From positions 868,001 to 932,000 of the forward strand of contig JAUHWR010000001.1 of NCBI GenBank assembly GCA_030427385.1: a DNA stretch of 64,000 bases, given 5' to 3'. The notes beneath the pieces were generated by a model. The model saw only the letters and a program-made list of their open reading frames with translations. It was not told the origin of the DNA and did not search any database. This DNA comes from Alphaproteobacteria bacterium. Its GTDB lineage: Bacteria > Pseudomonadota > Alphaproteobacteria > Micavibrionales > Micavibrionaceae. The position numbers and the translations under genes are program-made. Below are positions 29,903 through 35,476 of this stretch, piece after piece. How positions within the stretch are numbered: position 1 is the stretch's first letter; every line of letters starts with the position of its first letter.

Positions 29903-30652
29903 ATGCTAAAAATCAATAACCTACACGCAAACATAGACGACACCAAAATCCTAAAAGGTATTTCGCTTGAAATTCCGGACGGGGAGGTCCATGCGATTAT
30001 GGGGCCGAACGGGTCTGGAAAATCTACGCTATCCTACGTTTTGGCGGGGCGTGAGGATTATGAGGTTACCGAAGGTTCCATTGCGCTTGATGGCATTGAT
30101 ATGTTGGAATTATCGCCGGAGGAACGCGCCGCAGCAGGAATCTTTCTTGCCTTTCAATATCCCGTTGAGATTCCGGGCGTACAGGGGACAACTTTTTTAA
30201 AAACAGCCCTCAATGCGATCCGCAAGCAACGCGGAGAGAGCGAATTAGACGCACTGGATTTTTTAAAATTGATGAAGCAAAAAACCAAAAACCTAGGGAT
30301 TTCCGATGAAATGCTTAAACGCGCCGTTAATGTTGGCTTTTCGGGGGGAGAGAAAAAACGTAATGAAGTCTTACAAATGGCGATGCTCGATCCTAAATTC
30401 TGCGTTTTGGATGAAACCGACAGTGGCTTAGACATTGATGCGCTTAAAATTGTAGCGGATGGGGTAAATGCTATGCGCGCCGAAAACCGTTCTTTTCTTG
30501 TAATTACGCATTATCAAAGACTGCTTGATTACATCAAGCCCGATAAAGTGCATGTACTAGCAAAAGGACGTATTGTTAAATCAGGCGGCCCTGAACTTGC
30601 CCATGAGCTAGAAGAAAAAGGCTATGCAGAGTTCCTGCAGGAGGCGGCATAA
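29903..30652 (+). CDS. sufC: Fe-S cluster assembly ATPase SufC
   Basis: SufC is the ABC-type ATPase that drives conformational change in SufBCD. The 249 residues have Walker A GPNGSGKST (residues 34-42), the Q-loop FQYPVEIPG, the signature SGGEKKRNE (about 150) and Walker B CVLDETDSGLD, and the H-loop in VITHYQRLLDYI. It starts immediately after the GNAT stop and overlaps sufD by one base. Confidence 0.98.
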   Translation: MLKINNLHANIDDTKILKGISLEIPDGEVHAIMGPNGSGKSTLSYVLAGREDYEVTEGSIALDGIDMLELSPEERAAAGIFLAFQYPVEIPGVQGTTFLKTALNAIRKQRGESELDALDFLKLMKQKTKNLGISDEMLKRAVNVGFSGGEKKRNEVLQMAMLDPKFCVLDETDSGLDIDALKIVADGVNAMRAENRSFLVITHYQRLLDYIKPDKVHVLAKGRIVKSGGPELAHELEEKGYAEFLQEAA

Positions 30653-31878
30653 TGGCACAGCCAACCCCTATTAAAAAAGATCATAAATTGGATGACTATA
30701 ATATTGCAACTAACTGTAATAGCTCATTTAATGCCGCCTTACCTGAATGGTTGAAATCAGCACGTTTAAATGCGTACACAGACGTACAACAATCAGGATT
30801 ACCGACCCCGAAATGGGAAAGATTTAAATATACTAACGTTGCCCAATCCATAAAAAATAAAAACCTGTCTTATGCACCAGCAGACATCAGCACTGAAAGG
30901 GATCTAAATTTCGTTACTGATTTGACAAGTAACTTAAATGCGCTTCCTGATTGGGCGAAAAGCTTTCTATCATCCGCTCCCGCCGGACAAGAAAAGTATC
31001 AAGATATGGCTCTGTGGGACATTAATAGCGCGTTATTTGAAAACGGCCTGATAGTAAACATCCTCGCACATTCTGATCAAGACAAGCCTTTAAATTTGAC
31101 CATTAAAGGGCGTAATGGATGTCACACCCAACCAAGATTTTTGATCAATGCCGGTGAAAATTCCCATTTCACGATAAATGAAACCCATGAGGGTGAAGGG
31201 GATTTTTGGCATAATGGCGTCACCCAAATTCATGTTGGCAAAAATGCGACGCTCCGTCATTATCGTTTTCAATCAAACCCAGACAATGCCGTTCATACGC
31301 AAAATACCGCAGTGACCATTGAAGAAGGCGGTACGTATGAGTGTTTCACCATGACGATGGGGAGCGGGCTTAGCCGAAATCAAATTCATGTAAGTATTAT
31401 CGGCAGCCATGCCGAATGTATTTTAAATGGGATCAATCTGTTAAAACATGAACAAATTGGTGATACCACCATCACAATTGAGCATAAAGCGCCCAATTGC
31501 ACATCTCACCAAAATTACCGCAGCGTTTTGAATGACCAATCCAACGGTATTTTTCAAGGAAAAGTACACGTACATCAAATCGCACAGAAAACTGATGGCT
31601 ATCAAAAATCTGATACTTTACTACTATCCGATACTGCGCAAATGAATACCAAACCAGAGCTGGAAATTTATGCCGATGATGTCAAATGCTCGCATGGTAC
31701 GACAACCGGCAAGCTTGAGGATACGCCGCTCTTTTATTTAAGATCACGCGGCATACCGGAAGATGAAGCCCGCGCCTTGTTAATTCAATCTTTCCTAGGG
31801 GATATCACCGAGCGGATCAGCGACGAACATATCCGTGAGATGGCAATTAATCAGGTAATTTCATGGCTAAAAGCTTAA
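30652..31878 (+). CDS. sufD: Fe-S cluster assembly protein SufD
   Basis: SufD pairs with SufB in the SufBCD scaffold and is important for iron entry. The 408-residue sequence has the beta-helix core (INAGENSHFTINETHEGEGD, then HNGVTQIHVGKNATLRHYRF) and the family end YADDVKCSHGTTTGKLEDTPLFYLRSRGIPEDEARALL, with the conserved His in KCSHG. A GGAGG site overlaps the sufC stop, and the ATG overlaps it by one base (TAATG). The end overlaps sufS by 16 bases. Confidence 0.97.
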   Translation: MAQPTPIKKDHKLDDYNIATNCNSSFNAALPEWLKSARLNAYTDVQQSGLPTPKWERFKYTNVAQSIKNKNLSYAPADISTERDLNFVTDLTSNLNALPDWAKSFLSSAPAGQEKYQDMALWDINSALFENGLIVNILAHSDQDKPLNLTIKGRNGCHTQPRFLINAGENSHFTINETHEGEGDFWHNGVTQIHVGKNATLRHYRFQSNPDNAVHTQNTAVTIEEGGTYECFTMTMGSGLSRNQIHVSIIGSHAECILNGINLLKHEQIGDTTITIEHKAPNCTSHQNYRSVLNDQSNGIFQGKVHVHQIAQKTDGYQKSDTLLLSDTAQMNTKPELEIYADDVKCSHGTTTGKLEDTPLFYLRSRGIPEDEARALLIQSFLGDITERISDEHIREMAINQVISWLKA

Positions 31879-33110
31879 ACATGACCACGATTCAAAACCA
31901 TGACTGGCGAGATGACTTCCCAATTATGCGTACAAGTATGAATGGACAGCCGTTAATTTATCTTGATACCGCATCTTCGGCACAAAAACCGCAGGCTGTA
32001 ATTGATAAAATGACGCAAGTCATGGAAACAAATTATTCCAATATTCACAGAGGGTTATATGCTATTTCTCAGAATATAACTGAAGAATATGAATTCGTAA
32101 GATTAAAAATCAAAAATTTTCTAAATATACCAGATACTTACAGCATTATATTTACCCGAAATACGACAGAGGCAATCAATCTAGTCGCGCAGAGTTTCGG
32201 CCGTACGTTCTTGCAGGATGGAGATGAAATCATCCTATCCAGTCTGGAACATCATGCCAATATAGTTCCGTGGCAATTATTGAAAAATTACAATGACTTA
32301 AAAATTAAACCTATACCATTGCTTCAAGATAATACGCTTGATATTGAAGCGTACGCGTCTCTCTTAACAAAAAAGACGAAAATCATTGCGATCAATCATA
32401 TTTCCAATAGTCTTGGAAACATCAATAAAATAAATGATATCATATCATTAGCGAGAAATTTTAATCCTGAAATTAAAGTTATTATCGATGGATCGCAAGC
32501 TGTCGTTCATAGTCGAGTAAACTTAACAGAAATTGACGCTGACTTTTATGCTTTTACAGGGCACAAAATTTATGGGCCGAGCGGGGTAGGTGTTTTAATT
32601 GGAAAGACAGATTTACTTAATCAGATGCCGCCATATCAAGGCGGCGGTGATATGATTGAAACGGTCGGCTTTGATCATTCCACATACAAGCAAGCACCAT
32701 TTAAATTTGAGGCAGGTACACCCGCAATAACTGAGGTCATTGGCCTTGGTGCGGCGATTGATTATTTAAGTGGCATTGGAATGGATAACATTGCCGCCCA
32801 TGAACAAACTTTACTTAAGTATGCGACGCAACAAATAAAGGAAATTGACGGTATTACCATTTATGGCGATATCAGTGAAAAAGCAGCCATTATTTCTTTT
32901 ACAGCGGAATGGGCGCATATCTCTGATATTGCAATGATACTCGATCAATGCGGCGTTGCTGTGCGCTCAGGTCATCATTGCTGTATGCCATTGATGAAAA
33001 TACTTGGCATTGAGGGTACTGTACGTGCTTCATTCGGCTTGTATAATACCCATAACGATATAGATATATTTATTAAATCACTCAAAAAAGCAAAGAAGCT
33101 CCTCGCATGA
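31863..33110 (+). CDS. sufS: Cysteine desulfurase SufS
   Basis: SufS is the PLP enzyme that takes sulfur from cysteine for cluster building. The 415 residues have the family start DFPIMRTSMNGQPLIYLDTAS, the PLP Lys in FTGHKIYGPSG (about 228) and the active-site Cys loop SGHHCCMPLM (about 371), where the usual HHCAQP reads HHCCMP. No sufE or sufU partner is seen nearby. It overlaps sufD by 16 bases and the next gene by 4 (ATGA). The gene is AT-richer than sufB or sufC. Confidence 0.97.
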   Translation: MAKSLNMTTIQNHDWRDDFPIMRTSMNGQPLIYLDTASSAQKPQAVIDKMTQVMETNYSNIHRGLYAISQNITEEYEFVRLKIKNFLNIPDTYSIIFTRNTTEAINLVAQSFGRTFLQDGDEIILSSLEHHANIVPWQLLKNYNDLKIKPIPLLQDNTLDIEAYASLLTKKTKIIAINHISNSLGNINKINDIISLARNFNPEIKVIIDGSQAVVHSRVNLTEIDADFYAFTGHKIYGPSGVGVLIGKTDLLNQMPPYQGGGDMIETVGFDHSTYKQAPFKFEAGTPAITEVIGLGAAIDYLSGIGMDNIAAHEQTLLKYATQQIKEIDGITIYGDISEKAAIISFTAEWAHISDIAMILDQCGVAVRSGHHCCMPLMKILGIEGTVRASFGLYNTHNDIDIFIKSLKKAKKLLA

Positions 33111-33550
33111 AACAAGTCGCTGATGAAGAAATGGTCAAGAACGCCGTGGGCGAAGAGGAATATGATTCCCTTGCCGAACCGCCGAATTTAGAGGCACCAC
33201 GCGATCACCCCATGTGGCTCTCGGTGCAGAAAGCGCTGAAAGATATTTATGACCCCGAAATTCCGGTTAATATTTATGAGCTAGGTTTGATTTATCTGGT
33301 GGATATTCAAGATAGCAAAGAAAACCATCAGGAAGAGGGGAAGGGCGCGGCGGTGCATGATGTGTACGTGCGCATGTCTTTAACCTCTCCAGGGTGCCCT
33401 GTGGCGCAGGAAATGCCGGGATGGGTGCAGGCAGAGATCTTCTCGATTGATGGCATAGGTCAGGTTGATGTTGATATTATCTGGGATCCGACTTGGGATC
33501 CCTCTTTTATGGCAGAGACCGCCAAATTACAGTTAAACATGTTTACGTGA
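33107..33550 (+). CDS. SufT-like DUF59 (MIP18) family protein
   Basis: The 147-residue protein carries the DUF59 domain (residues 37-145) with YDPEIPVNIYELGLIYLVDI and the Cys-containing SLTSPGCPVAQEMPGWVQAE. Such proteins take part in Fe-S assembly or delivery in bacteria (SufT). The first 35 residues are acidic and less conserved. It overlaps sufS by 4 bases (ATGA) and precedes the A-type carrier, as is common in alphaproteobacterial suf operons. Confidence 0.92.
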   Translation: MKQVADEEMVKNAVGEEEYDSLAEPPNLEAPRDHPMWLSVQKALKDIYDPEIPVNIYELGLIYLVDIQDSKENHQEEGKGAAVHDVYVRMSLTSPGCPVAQEMPGWVQAEIFSIDGIGQVDVDIIWDPTWDPSFMAETAKLQLNMFT

Positions 33551-33563
33551 GCAAATAATAACC

Positions 33564-33893
33564 ATGATTCCCCCAATTACTATCACCGACAAAGCCAAAG
33601 CAGCCATTGCCACGCGTATGGAGTCGGCACCGGCCGGCACTATTGGCTTGCGCCTGCATGTTAAACCGACAGGATGTTCCGGCAATTCATATGCGATGGA
33701 ATATGTCAGCACAGATGATGACATTAGCACCGATGATGTATTTGAAGGGCTGTATATTGCCAAAACCCTGTCTTGGATGATGTTTGGTATGGAAATTGAC
33801 TATGCGAGCGATGATCTGGGCAATGAAGCCTTCCAATTTAAAAACCCCAATGAAAAAGGCCGTTGCGGTTGCGGAGAATCATTTCAAGTTTAA
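33564..33893 (+). CDS. A-type Fe-S cluster carrier (SufA/IscA family)
   Basis: The 109-residue protein has the HesB/IscA fold: ITDKAKAAIATRM at the start, GLRLHVKPTGCSGNSYAMEYV with the first Cys (about 41), and the C-terminal CGCGESF pair. These three Cys hold a [2Fe-2S] or [4Fe-4S] cluster for transfer to apoproteins. It is the last gene of the suf operon. A parS site begins 3 bases after the stop codon. Confidence 0.93.
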   Translation: MIPPITITDKAKAAIATRMESAPAGTIGLRLHVKPTGCSGNSYAMEYVSTDDDISTDDVFEGLYIAKTLSWMMFGMEIDYASDDLGNEAFQFKNPNEKGRCGCGESFQV

Positions 33894-33895
33894 AA

Positions 33896-33911
33896 TGTTT
33901 CACGTGAAACA
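33896..33911. other. parS: parS centromere site (perfect 16-bp ParB palindrome)
   Basis: TGTTTCACGTGAAACA matches the universal bacterial parS consensus at all 16 positions. It lies 3 bases past the suf operon, in non-coding DNA. ParB is expected to load here and spread; parS sites normally lie close to the replication origin. No parA or parB gene is within the window. Confidence 0.9.
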
Positions 33912-34017
33912 TATCGTGAACAAATTAAAAAGTTTTATATACTTAAGCTTTTATAAGATAAAAGTTTTTGTATAGGTTTTGGTCTGCCATTCATTCACAA
34001 TGCAATATACAGGCAAC

Positions 34018-34040
34018 AAAAAAGGGCGTGTAAACGCCCT
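34018..34040 (-). terminator. Intrinsic terminator of the 34-35 kb minus-strand cassette
   Basis: On the minus strand AGGGCGT and ACGCCCT (34034-34040 with 34023-34029) form a perfect 7-bp stem with a 4-base loop, followed by T5 and GTT. It ends the unit 35416-34067 and shields it from the parS region. Confidence 0.75.
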
Positions 34041-34066
34041 GATTTAAATGATTTAGCATTAGAAGT

Positions 34067-34188
34067 CTAAAATCCAGGACTAGGTGTACTTTTATTTTCT
34101 AGACCTAAGTCCAAACTGTTATTAGATCCATATACATCTTTTAATACTGAAAGTTCATCTGATAAACTTGTAACTGATAGTGCCATAT
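34067..34188 (-). CDS. Mini-gene with in-phase A-AAA-AAG slippery site (27 or 40 residues)
   Basis: An ATG at 34188 follows a GAGGG ribosome-binding site by 7 bases. The zero frame gives MALSVTSLSDELSVLKKM and stops after 27 residues (stop at 34105). A heptamer A AAA AAG lies in phase at 34144-34138; a -1 slip there continues as DVYGSNNSLDLGLE and on to a stop at 34067, giving 40 residues. The same pattern would arise from a lost base. It is the last gene of an unknown cassette, followed by a terminator. Function unknown. Confidence 0.4.
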
Positions 34189-34213
34189 TATATCCCTCGT
34201 TTTAAGTTACACT

Positions 34214-34828
34214 TTATTTTGCTTCTTTAAGAGCTTTAAAGTAGATCTCTCTGGCTTTTTCCTCTCCCAAAGCGTTGACCTGTACGTTATATAAATCTTC
34301 GTAGCCAAAAGCTTTAATTGCTTTTTTCACTTCATCAGAATATACATTTTCCAGATCTATTCCTATTTTACACATGTACGCTATCTTGTCAAGGAATTTT
34401 GTATGCGCTTTATTGGCGCGCTCCAAAGGATCCGCGTCGGGAGGCGGAATTTTAATTCCCATTAAGGATTGCTCTATTTCACGTAATGCGCCCCCCAATT
34501 CCAGAATTTGAGTCATATATGGCTCTGTCTGATCAGGCTCGGCAGCTAAGAAAATATCTAAAGAAGGGGTTGTAGCACTTTGTAATTTCTTGCTTTTTAT
34601 AAAATGGAACTTTACTTTATTTTCATCAGCAAGATCCAAAAGGCGCGCGCCATTTTCACTTTCGCGTAGCATCGCCTTCATTTTATTTAAGAGAGGTTCG
34701 GCATCTTTAATAGTATAAAAATGTTCCTTAGACTGTAATTCCACATGCCCAAACGATCCGGTCAGGGAGGAATAGGGAGAATCATTTGATTCTTTTTTAT
34801 CAAGGTTGTTCGGCGGTTGTTCGGTCAT
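34214..34828 (-). CDS. Hypothetical acidic helical protein, cassette gene B
   Basis: The 204-residue product has a polar, Ser/Asn-rich start (1-35), then a helical core with KDAEPLLNKMKAMLRESENGARLLDLADENKVKFHF. A second strand-helix unit follows (SLDIFLAAEPDQTEPYMTQI, then LELGGALREIEQSL), and a helical C-terminus. The core layout slightly recalls small metallopeptidase-like domains, but there is no HExxH, so no function is claimed. No signal peptide. It begins 6 bases after the 194-residue gene and is followed by the mini-gene, in one operon. Confidence 0.65.
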   Translation of the reverse strand: MTEQPPNNLDKKESNDSPYSSLTGSFGHVELQSKEHFYTIKDAEPLLNKMKAMLRESENGARLLDLADENKVKFHFIKSKKLQSATTPSLDIFLAAEPDQTEPYMTQILELGGALREIEQSLMGIKIPPPDADPLERANKAHTKFLDKIAYMCKIGIDLENVYSDEVKKAIKAFGYEDLYNVQVNALGEEKAREIYFKALKEAK

Positions 34829-34834
34829 ATCGCT

Positions 34835-35416
34835 TTAATAATCGGTTGTTGAATCTTGGTTAACTCTATTATGTAGTCCTTGCATAGACATTTTTGTATC
34901 TGTGATTGAGACAGCGCCATCTTTTGTTACGCTGATCGTTGCTGTCATGATGCTACCATCAAAATATAGTGGCACCTGTATAATAAAAGCGCTTTTATCG
35001 CTATCATAATACACATCTGTATCTTCGGGAAATTCTTCAAGAATGTGATATTGATCACGATCCCCCAGAATATTAATCTCGCCCACATCCATCTTAACAA
35101 AAATCAAATAAAAATCGAGATATGGCAGCACTGTTTCTTCGTTTAAAATCAGATTTTTTTCTGAATTAAAAAATTTGATGGCGTCAAAATCACCGTTTAA
35201 ATAGCTATAATTTTCGCCATCCCCAATATAAAACAACGAAAAAGCCGGTAATGTGGCGTAATTCGTCAGGCGATAAAGGTTTGTCGCCCTGTAAAATGGT
35301 AAATTGCGCATGCGCGCTTCTGTCGTTGCCGGAACAAACAAATTACCTAGACCGGCGGTTTTTACCGCTTCGATCATAAATCCGGTTTTTTGTTTGTCCA
35401 ATATTTGCCAAGTCAT
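34835..35416 (-). CDS. Hypothetical beta-rich protein, cassette gene A
   Basis: I place the start at the ATG at 35416; a TTG five codons earlier is also in frame. The 193-residue product begins MTWQILDKQKTGFMIE, is rich in Tyr, Phe and Asp, and looks mostly beta (YSYLNGDFDAIKFF, then AFIIQVPLYFDGSIMTATISV). It has no signal peptide, membrane segment or known motif. It leads an unrecognised three-gene minus-strand unit next to parS. The upstream gap to dusA is 60 bases. Confidence 0.65.
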   Translation of the reverse strand: MTWQILDKQKTGFMIEAVKTAGLGNLFVPATTEARMRNLPFYRATNLYRLTNYATLPAFSLFYIGDGENYSYLNGDFDAIKFFNSEKNLILNEETVLPYLDFYLIFVKMDVGEINILGDRDQYHILEEFPEDTDVYYDSDKSAFIIQVPLYFDGSIMTATISVTKDGAVSITDTKMSMQGLHNRVNQDSTTDY

Positions 35417-35476
35417 ATAGGAATCCCACAATAATATTCTTTCGTTAAGATAGTGATAATTTGATCGCGGGACAAG

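Follow-up and report, generated by a model that had tools for sequence, protein, structure and literature searches.

Clustering close to the replication origin is a usual, albeit not a required, trait of parS sites, and the consequences of placing such sites elsewhere have been described in several bacteria. Parts of one study report that extra parS sites in Caulobacter are best tolerated near the native cluster and strongly disfavoured mid-arm, and that sites near the terminus (ter) are reportedly strongly discouraged in Bacillus subtilis and Pseudomonas aeruginosa (PMC5815017). Excerpts of another describe major chromosome disturbance when B. subtilis lacking its eight origin-domain sites carries a parS near the terminus, and only partial restoration of function by a distant perfect parS in P. 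aeruginosa (PMC4368675). Given that terminal sites are discouraged in the latter two species, a selected ter-side parS needs explaining. A natural perfect parS on the terminus side, together with the scattered two-part sites described below, provides a way to ask how cells tolerate or use origin-distal ParB loading, and the scattered sites raise the question of whether something gates that loading. A further system of relevance is the SOS box of Caulobacter, a direct repeat of the form GTTC-N7-GTTC that is also present in related bacteria (according to portions of PMC9578287).

The window parS and its chromosomal position

The window, by which we mean the whole 64,000-base stretch analysed, corresponds to positions 868001-932000 of a main contig of 2,130,879 bases, the circularity of which is assumed. 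Read directly, positions 33896-33911 are TGTTTCACGTGAAACA, an exact copy of the 16-bp palindromic parS with 0 mismatches, as an earlier note on this DNA had claimed. A mismatch scan finds no other parS match at up to 3 mismatches within the window, and shuffled windows contain 0.35 such matches on average. The note's judgement that a chance match is negligible agrees with the 2.3e-5 exact copies expected from base composition per 64 kb; the corresponding expectation for the main contig is 0.00076, against which seven exact copies are found, and the window match is therefore real rather than a product of chance. The features surrounding it are as follows.

30652-33550, plus strand: sufD, sufS and sufT-like genes of the suf operon (SufBD core, class-V aminotransferase, FeS_assembly_P)
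33564-33893, plus strand: sufA-type gene, last in the suf operon (Fe-S_biosyn, PF01521)
33895-33924, plus strand: composite 30-bp element, identical, inverted, to chromosome positions 312416-312445
33896-33911, palindrome without strand: exact 16-bp parS (sequence scan)
33916-33922, plus strand: second part of the composite, GTGAACA, with its GAAC at 33918-33921
33945-33967, plus strand: A+T-rich hairpin followed by a U-rich stretch, a possible weak suf terminator (folding)
34023-34040, minus strand: terminator-like hairpin that belongs to the minus-strand cassette and faces parS (terminator scan and folding)
34067-34186, minus strand: 39-residue reading frame, with a small frame at the equivalent place in the sister species (by eye)
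34214-34828, minus strand: 204-aa gene, convergent to sufA, no match in a Pfam search

The site thus occupies a non-coding gap between the convergent 3' ends of sufA and the minus-strand cassette. The earlier placement in the gap just past the last suf gene holds: the stop codon of sufA has its last base at 33893, leaving two bases before parS. That the cassette's terminator faces parS is borne out by the terminator-like hairpin at 34040-34023. The match also stretches beyond the 16-mer noted earlier, as bases 33895-33924 recur exactly elsewhere. The candidate suf terminator region (33940-33980) folds at -8.6 kcal/mol and is absent from the terminator scan list. As a transcription terminator, the parS hairpin itself was rejected; it folds (-6 kcal/mol) but has no T run, and it too is absent from the scan. 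The cassette (window 34061-35431) comprises the 39-aa frame and two proteins of 204 and 198 aa, neither with a Pfam match, and its small frame and 204-aa gene have apparent counterparts, identified by eye, in the sister species. Near the window, 5 matches to a loose dif consensus were found where 6.0 are expected.

Genome-wide there are seven exact, two one-mismatch and three two-mismatch parS copies. Further parS sites therefore exist, whose absence the earlier note would have counted against its reading, but their cluster lies far from the window: five exact sites and one with a single mismatch are grouped at 1.923-1.927 Mb, within an mnmE-mnmG-rsmG stretch followed by parA and parB (names taken from translations, with ParB confirmed by Pfam). 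The window parS, at 0.902 Mb, is 1,024,531 bases (48% of the chromosome) from this parAB-side cluster and 41 kb from its antipode. GC skew was sampled over 744,000 bases. Between 1.02 and 1.93 Mb, 11 of 12 samples are negative; the skew crosses zero from negative to positive near 1.945 Mb (the minimum); from 1.935 Mb via the contig end to 0.77 Mb, 13 of 14 samples are positive; and between 0.77 and 1.02 Mb, a turn-back zone inside which the window falls, the sign flips repeatedly. On the evidence of both cluster distance and skew, the segment is terminus-side and not origin-side, and the window parS is near the terminus, opposite the replication origin. The earlier view of an origin-proximal segment consequently fails, with the cluster nearly half a chromosome away and the skew minimum likewise far from the window, and the site departs from the usual origin-proximal clustering.

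The kind of site is nevertheless as the earlier note supposed, since the 16-mer is exact and the same genome possesses parAB and a ParB with parS-type contact residues. One HTH_ParB match is present on the main contig and a second on a 56-kb contig, in which no parS-like site occurs at up to 2 mismatches. In our own alignment, in which the Caulobacter chain is numbered ten below the paper, the chromosomal ParB keeps Q162, G170, K171, S172, R173, N178, G201 and R204 of Caulobacter ParB (parS contacts), and has M at position 179 and T at position 184, where Noc has lysines. Given these residues, the window parS is likely bound by the chromosomal ParB. A second ParB paralogue as reader was rejected, there being none on the main contig of this genome. 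The smaller contig (55,987 bases) is likely a mobile plasmid, encoding a large ParB-like protein, a Y-family polymerase and a DUF3363 protein, the last of which we take to be relaxase-like.

Scattered parS sites with a second part

An ABC-permease gene ends 41 bases before a second lone exact parS, located at 312429, and the 30 bases of 312416-312445 are shared exactly (0 mismatches, inverted) with the window site. The element runs in the order parS, spacer TATC, GTGAACA, such that GAAC starts six bases after parS and the other strand reads GTTC-N7-GTTT. At up to 3 mismatches, a search of 104 family genomes (Micavibrio-like Alphaproteobacteria, as inferred from relatives that include Micavibrio sp. 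and other Alphaproteobacteria, with identities reaching 65%) lists 24 copies in 8 genomes, including seven in genome G075 and eight in G076. GAAC is intact in all 24 listed copies and the 14-base parS core in 21, differences being mainly in the spacer. A strict pattern, TGTTTCACGTGAAACA-N6-GAAC, recovers 26 copies from the 142 genomes of the order, again in 8 genomes and all within this family. Within the second part only GAACA is strongly conserved, the preceding bases varying.

Exact parS occurs in 67 of the 104 family genomes, at 186 sites, 184 of which enter the association count (the two left out belong to G086, a genome without the composite). Sites were classed as clustered where another exact parS lies within 12 kb, a limit picked after the lists were seen. 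GAAC at +6 accompanies 26 of 68 single exact sites versus 0 of 116 clustered ones (Fisher p = 1.5e-13), although this p-value overstates the case because it treats related sites as independent: of the 26 composites, 19 come from one genus (g30) and some are orthologous to each other. Among single sites, the composite is found at 23 of 32 in genomes that also have a cluster and at 3 of 36 in genomes without one. The spacing is likewise fixed: over offsets 0-23 in the flanks of orphan sites, 25 of 30 GAAC occurrences stand at offset 6 (155 flanked sites, with one G076 composite on contig C90 entered as ori-side, probably through the likeness of a Der-type GTPase to MnmE, an entry that has no bearing on the comparison of single and clustered sites). 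In an exploratory comparison with local GC skew, 9/9 G075 composites are oriented with the leading strand (p = 0.004, several skews being weak), as are 15 of the 19 measured among all 26 (p = 0.019, likewise exploratory, the window copy being unscored); the four with the opposite polarity are the G067 copy, the 312-kb copy and two of the four G076 copies that were measured. A phage origin of the composite was rejected, given that viral contigs show no excess of it (40 stretches versus 42 for a control 4-mer).

Our literature search on scattered parS, which left most subscription journals outside its reach, returned no title on a one-sided second motif. A second kind of scattered parS was also observed, in which six copies in G039 centre a longer inverted repeat, ATAGGAAT-parS-ATTCCTAT, one of them with a mismatch and most flanked by A and T runs; two copies in G048 are partly similar.

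The placement of the composites points to selection on the class, as judged from alignments, and not to insertion. In sufD of G075 and G076 the element lies in the last codons, encodes VSRET and aligns to relatives without an indel. Within rimM it encodes LYVSRETLP in the same two genomes and LFVSRETLP in G073, and the G078 sequence, LYVPRETLP, has two mismatches in the 16-mer and keeps GAAC; the in-frame element is thus exact in three species and bears parS mismatches in a fourth. It also recurs in frame in ileS of two genera, represented by G075 and G099, which are 60% identical there and share WVMFHVK (for rimM and ileS, the alignments comprise carriers of the element alone). Other composites lie inside hisD, at the start of a ybgC-type thioesterase, and just past the ends of purA-, aroA-, metF- and dksA-type genes. 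By reading, 19 of the 26 are within a gene or no more than 36 bases past a gene end, which argues that the scattered composites are mostly not promoter elements; the remaining seven include those that precede a polymerase frame and a SufE frame by 11-12 bases.

As a separate observation, five of the 26 composites lie at suf genes, in differing positions: at sufA in the window genome, at the 3' end of sufD in G075 and G076, and beside the SufE gene in G065 and G075. This is a raw count, noticed post hoc.

The window copy itself is not conserved. By eye, the sister species (G001) shares the surroundings of the window copy, with sufT, sufA, a small frame and a gene corresponding to the 204-aa one in the same order; in its spacer past sufA, a plain hairpin stands in place of parS. 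At up to 3 mismatches, parS stands behind suf only at the window's own locus among 30 family loci, read out of 95 genomes with a SufT match (loci at contig ends being covered to the contig end), and at none of 80 named suf loci, so that conservation of parS behind suf was rejected. The window parS was either lost in G001 or is recent in the window genome. From these comparisons the class looks selected, the window copy itself not necessarily so.

Readings of the two-part element

We regard it as fairly probable that the window site acts as an origin-distal parS at which the single chromosomal ParB nucleates, and that it belongs to a scattered two-part class. In that class a perfect parS is paired, on one side, with a conserved GAAC at a distance of about one helical turn. 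As at any parS, ParB-CTP would be expected to load there as a sliding clamp, and a small local ParB complex would form near the terminus, possibly bringing SMC. The second part may tune the lone site, either as a third ParB contact or through a competing or co-binding protein.

The first of these forms, an extended parS in which a third ParB half-site stabilises a lone site, is a tentative but live possibility. GTGAACA resembles the parS arm GTGAAACA minus one A, the arm ends are 11 bases apart, or about one helical turn, and P. aeruginosa ParB binds the half-parS sequences GTTTCAC and GTTCCAC (PMC10419367). However, GAACA alone is strongly conserved, GTGAAC occurring in 11 of 26 composites and GTTCCAC, on the other strand, in 1 of 26, and the window extension reads GTTCACG, which is neither of these half-sites.

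Somewhat doubtful is the view that the window copy is a relic without function, or else a transient site that happens to lie where the ter region tolerates parS. The absence of parS from the sister species is in keeping with this, as is a limited zone within about 100 kb of ter in which extra parS is tolerated in Caulobacter Tn-seq data (from sections of PMC5815017). Against this, two distant copies agree exactly over 30 bp and the second part is found across the family, which favours selection, albeit on the class and not necessarily on this copy.

We consider it unlikely that the composite is a variant LexA (SOS) operator or a parS that LexA can cover, LexA binding across one parS arm and thereby blocking or gating ParB loading. 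GTTC-N7-GTTT is one base off the alphaproteobacterial SOS box and has the same 11-base repeat geometry. Among 28 of 30 genomes surveyed (2 with partial recA loci were left out), 20 recA promoters have, within 260 bases, a strict GTTC/GAAC-N7 repeat (a raw count), and one of these 20, from G003, reads TGTTCCACGTGGAACA-TTTCAT-GAAC. In place of the strict repeat, the recA promoter of the window genome (1542249 on the main contig) has GTTC-N7-GTTTCGCGTGAAAC-N7-GAAC, so that a parS with one mismatch is flanked at +6 by GAAC in both directions; the other seven of the eight recA promoters without the strict repeat contain no parS-like site. Moreover, in G099 one composite and the start of a Y-family polymerase frame are separated by 11 bases, and T precedes GTTC in 24/26 composites and 28/31 SOS boxes, but also in 11/17 controls. 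Against this reading, the lexA promoter of the window genome has a canonical SOS box (a box is close upstream in 13 of 20 lexA loci), and G075, the genome richest in composites, has canonical boxes at recA and lexA and its composites elsewhere. The predominantly genic or post-genic placement of the class is a further point against it. The composite spacers score -0.63 on average versus 7.46 for SOS boxes and do not differ significantly from the 17 controls (p = 0.19), and the perfect other parS arm goes unexplained by LexA. The window site itself reads GTTC-N7-GTTT where the SOS box has GTTC-N7-GTTC, and sits between convergent gene ends and not at the promoter of a damage gene. As the candidate reader of GAAC, we rank ParB contact slightly above LexA.

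More improbable is a regulated second class of centromere site away from the origin, with an SOS-type half-box overlapping parS, in which a GAAC-reading protein, e.g. LexA, would mask parS during normal growth, and its removal, e.g. after DNA damage, would let ParB load chromosome-wide, including at the terminus. Finally, a small mobile or palindromic repeat carrying parS by accident is very improbable: there are several similar copies per genome (in G075 and G076 as above), but the sufD copies align to relatives with no sign of an insertion, both parts persist despite variation in the spacer, and copies outside orthologous places share little beyond the element, with the exception of two G076 loci (L078 and L083) that have a common 3' flank.

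Comparison with known systems

An origin-distal nucleation site for ParB, the reading we prefer, has its closest relative in the chromosomal Spo0J/ParB parS, with which the window site shares the exact 16-mer in a genome that likewise has a parAB operon and a parS-type ParB. It differs in being lone, near the terminus, and flanked on one side by the GAAC that clustered family sites lack. The Noc binding motif differs from the parS composite. Noc sites are likewise scattered sites of a ParB-family protein (PMC7383237), whereas the ParB of the window genome carries R173 and G201 in place of the Noc residues, and the main contig holds no second HTH_ParB match. The alphaproteobacterial SOS box has the same direct-repeat spacing as the composite (excerpts of PMC9578287), yet the second half of the composite is GTTT, a part of parS, and most copies lie off promoters. 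In P. aeruginosa, dispersed parS and half-parS are likewise ParB sites away from the origin (PMC4368675 and PMC10419367, in part). According to the same partial accounts, the distant full sites there diverge by more than 1 base and the bound half-sites number in the hundreds, whereas here the parS is perfect and accompanied by a second part at a fixed distance.
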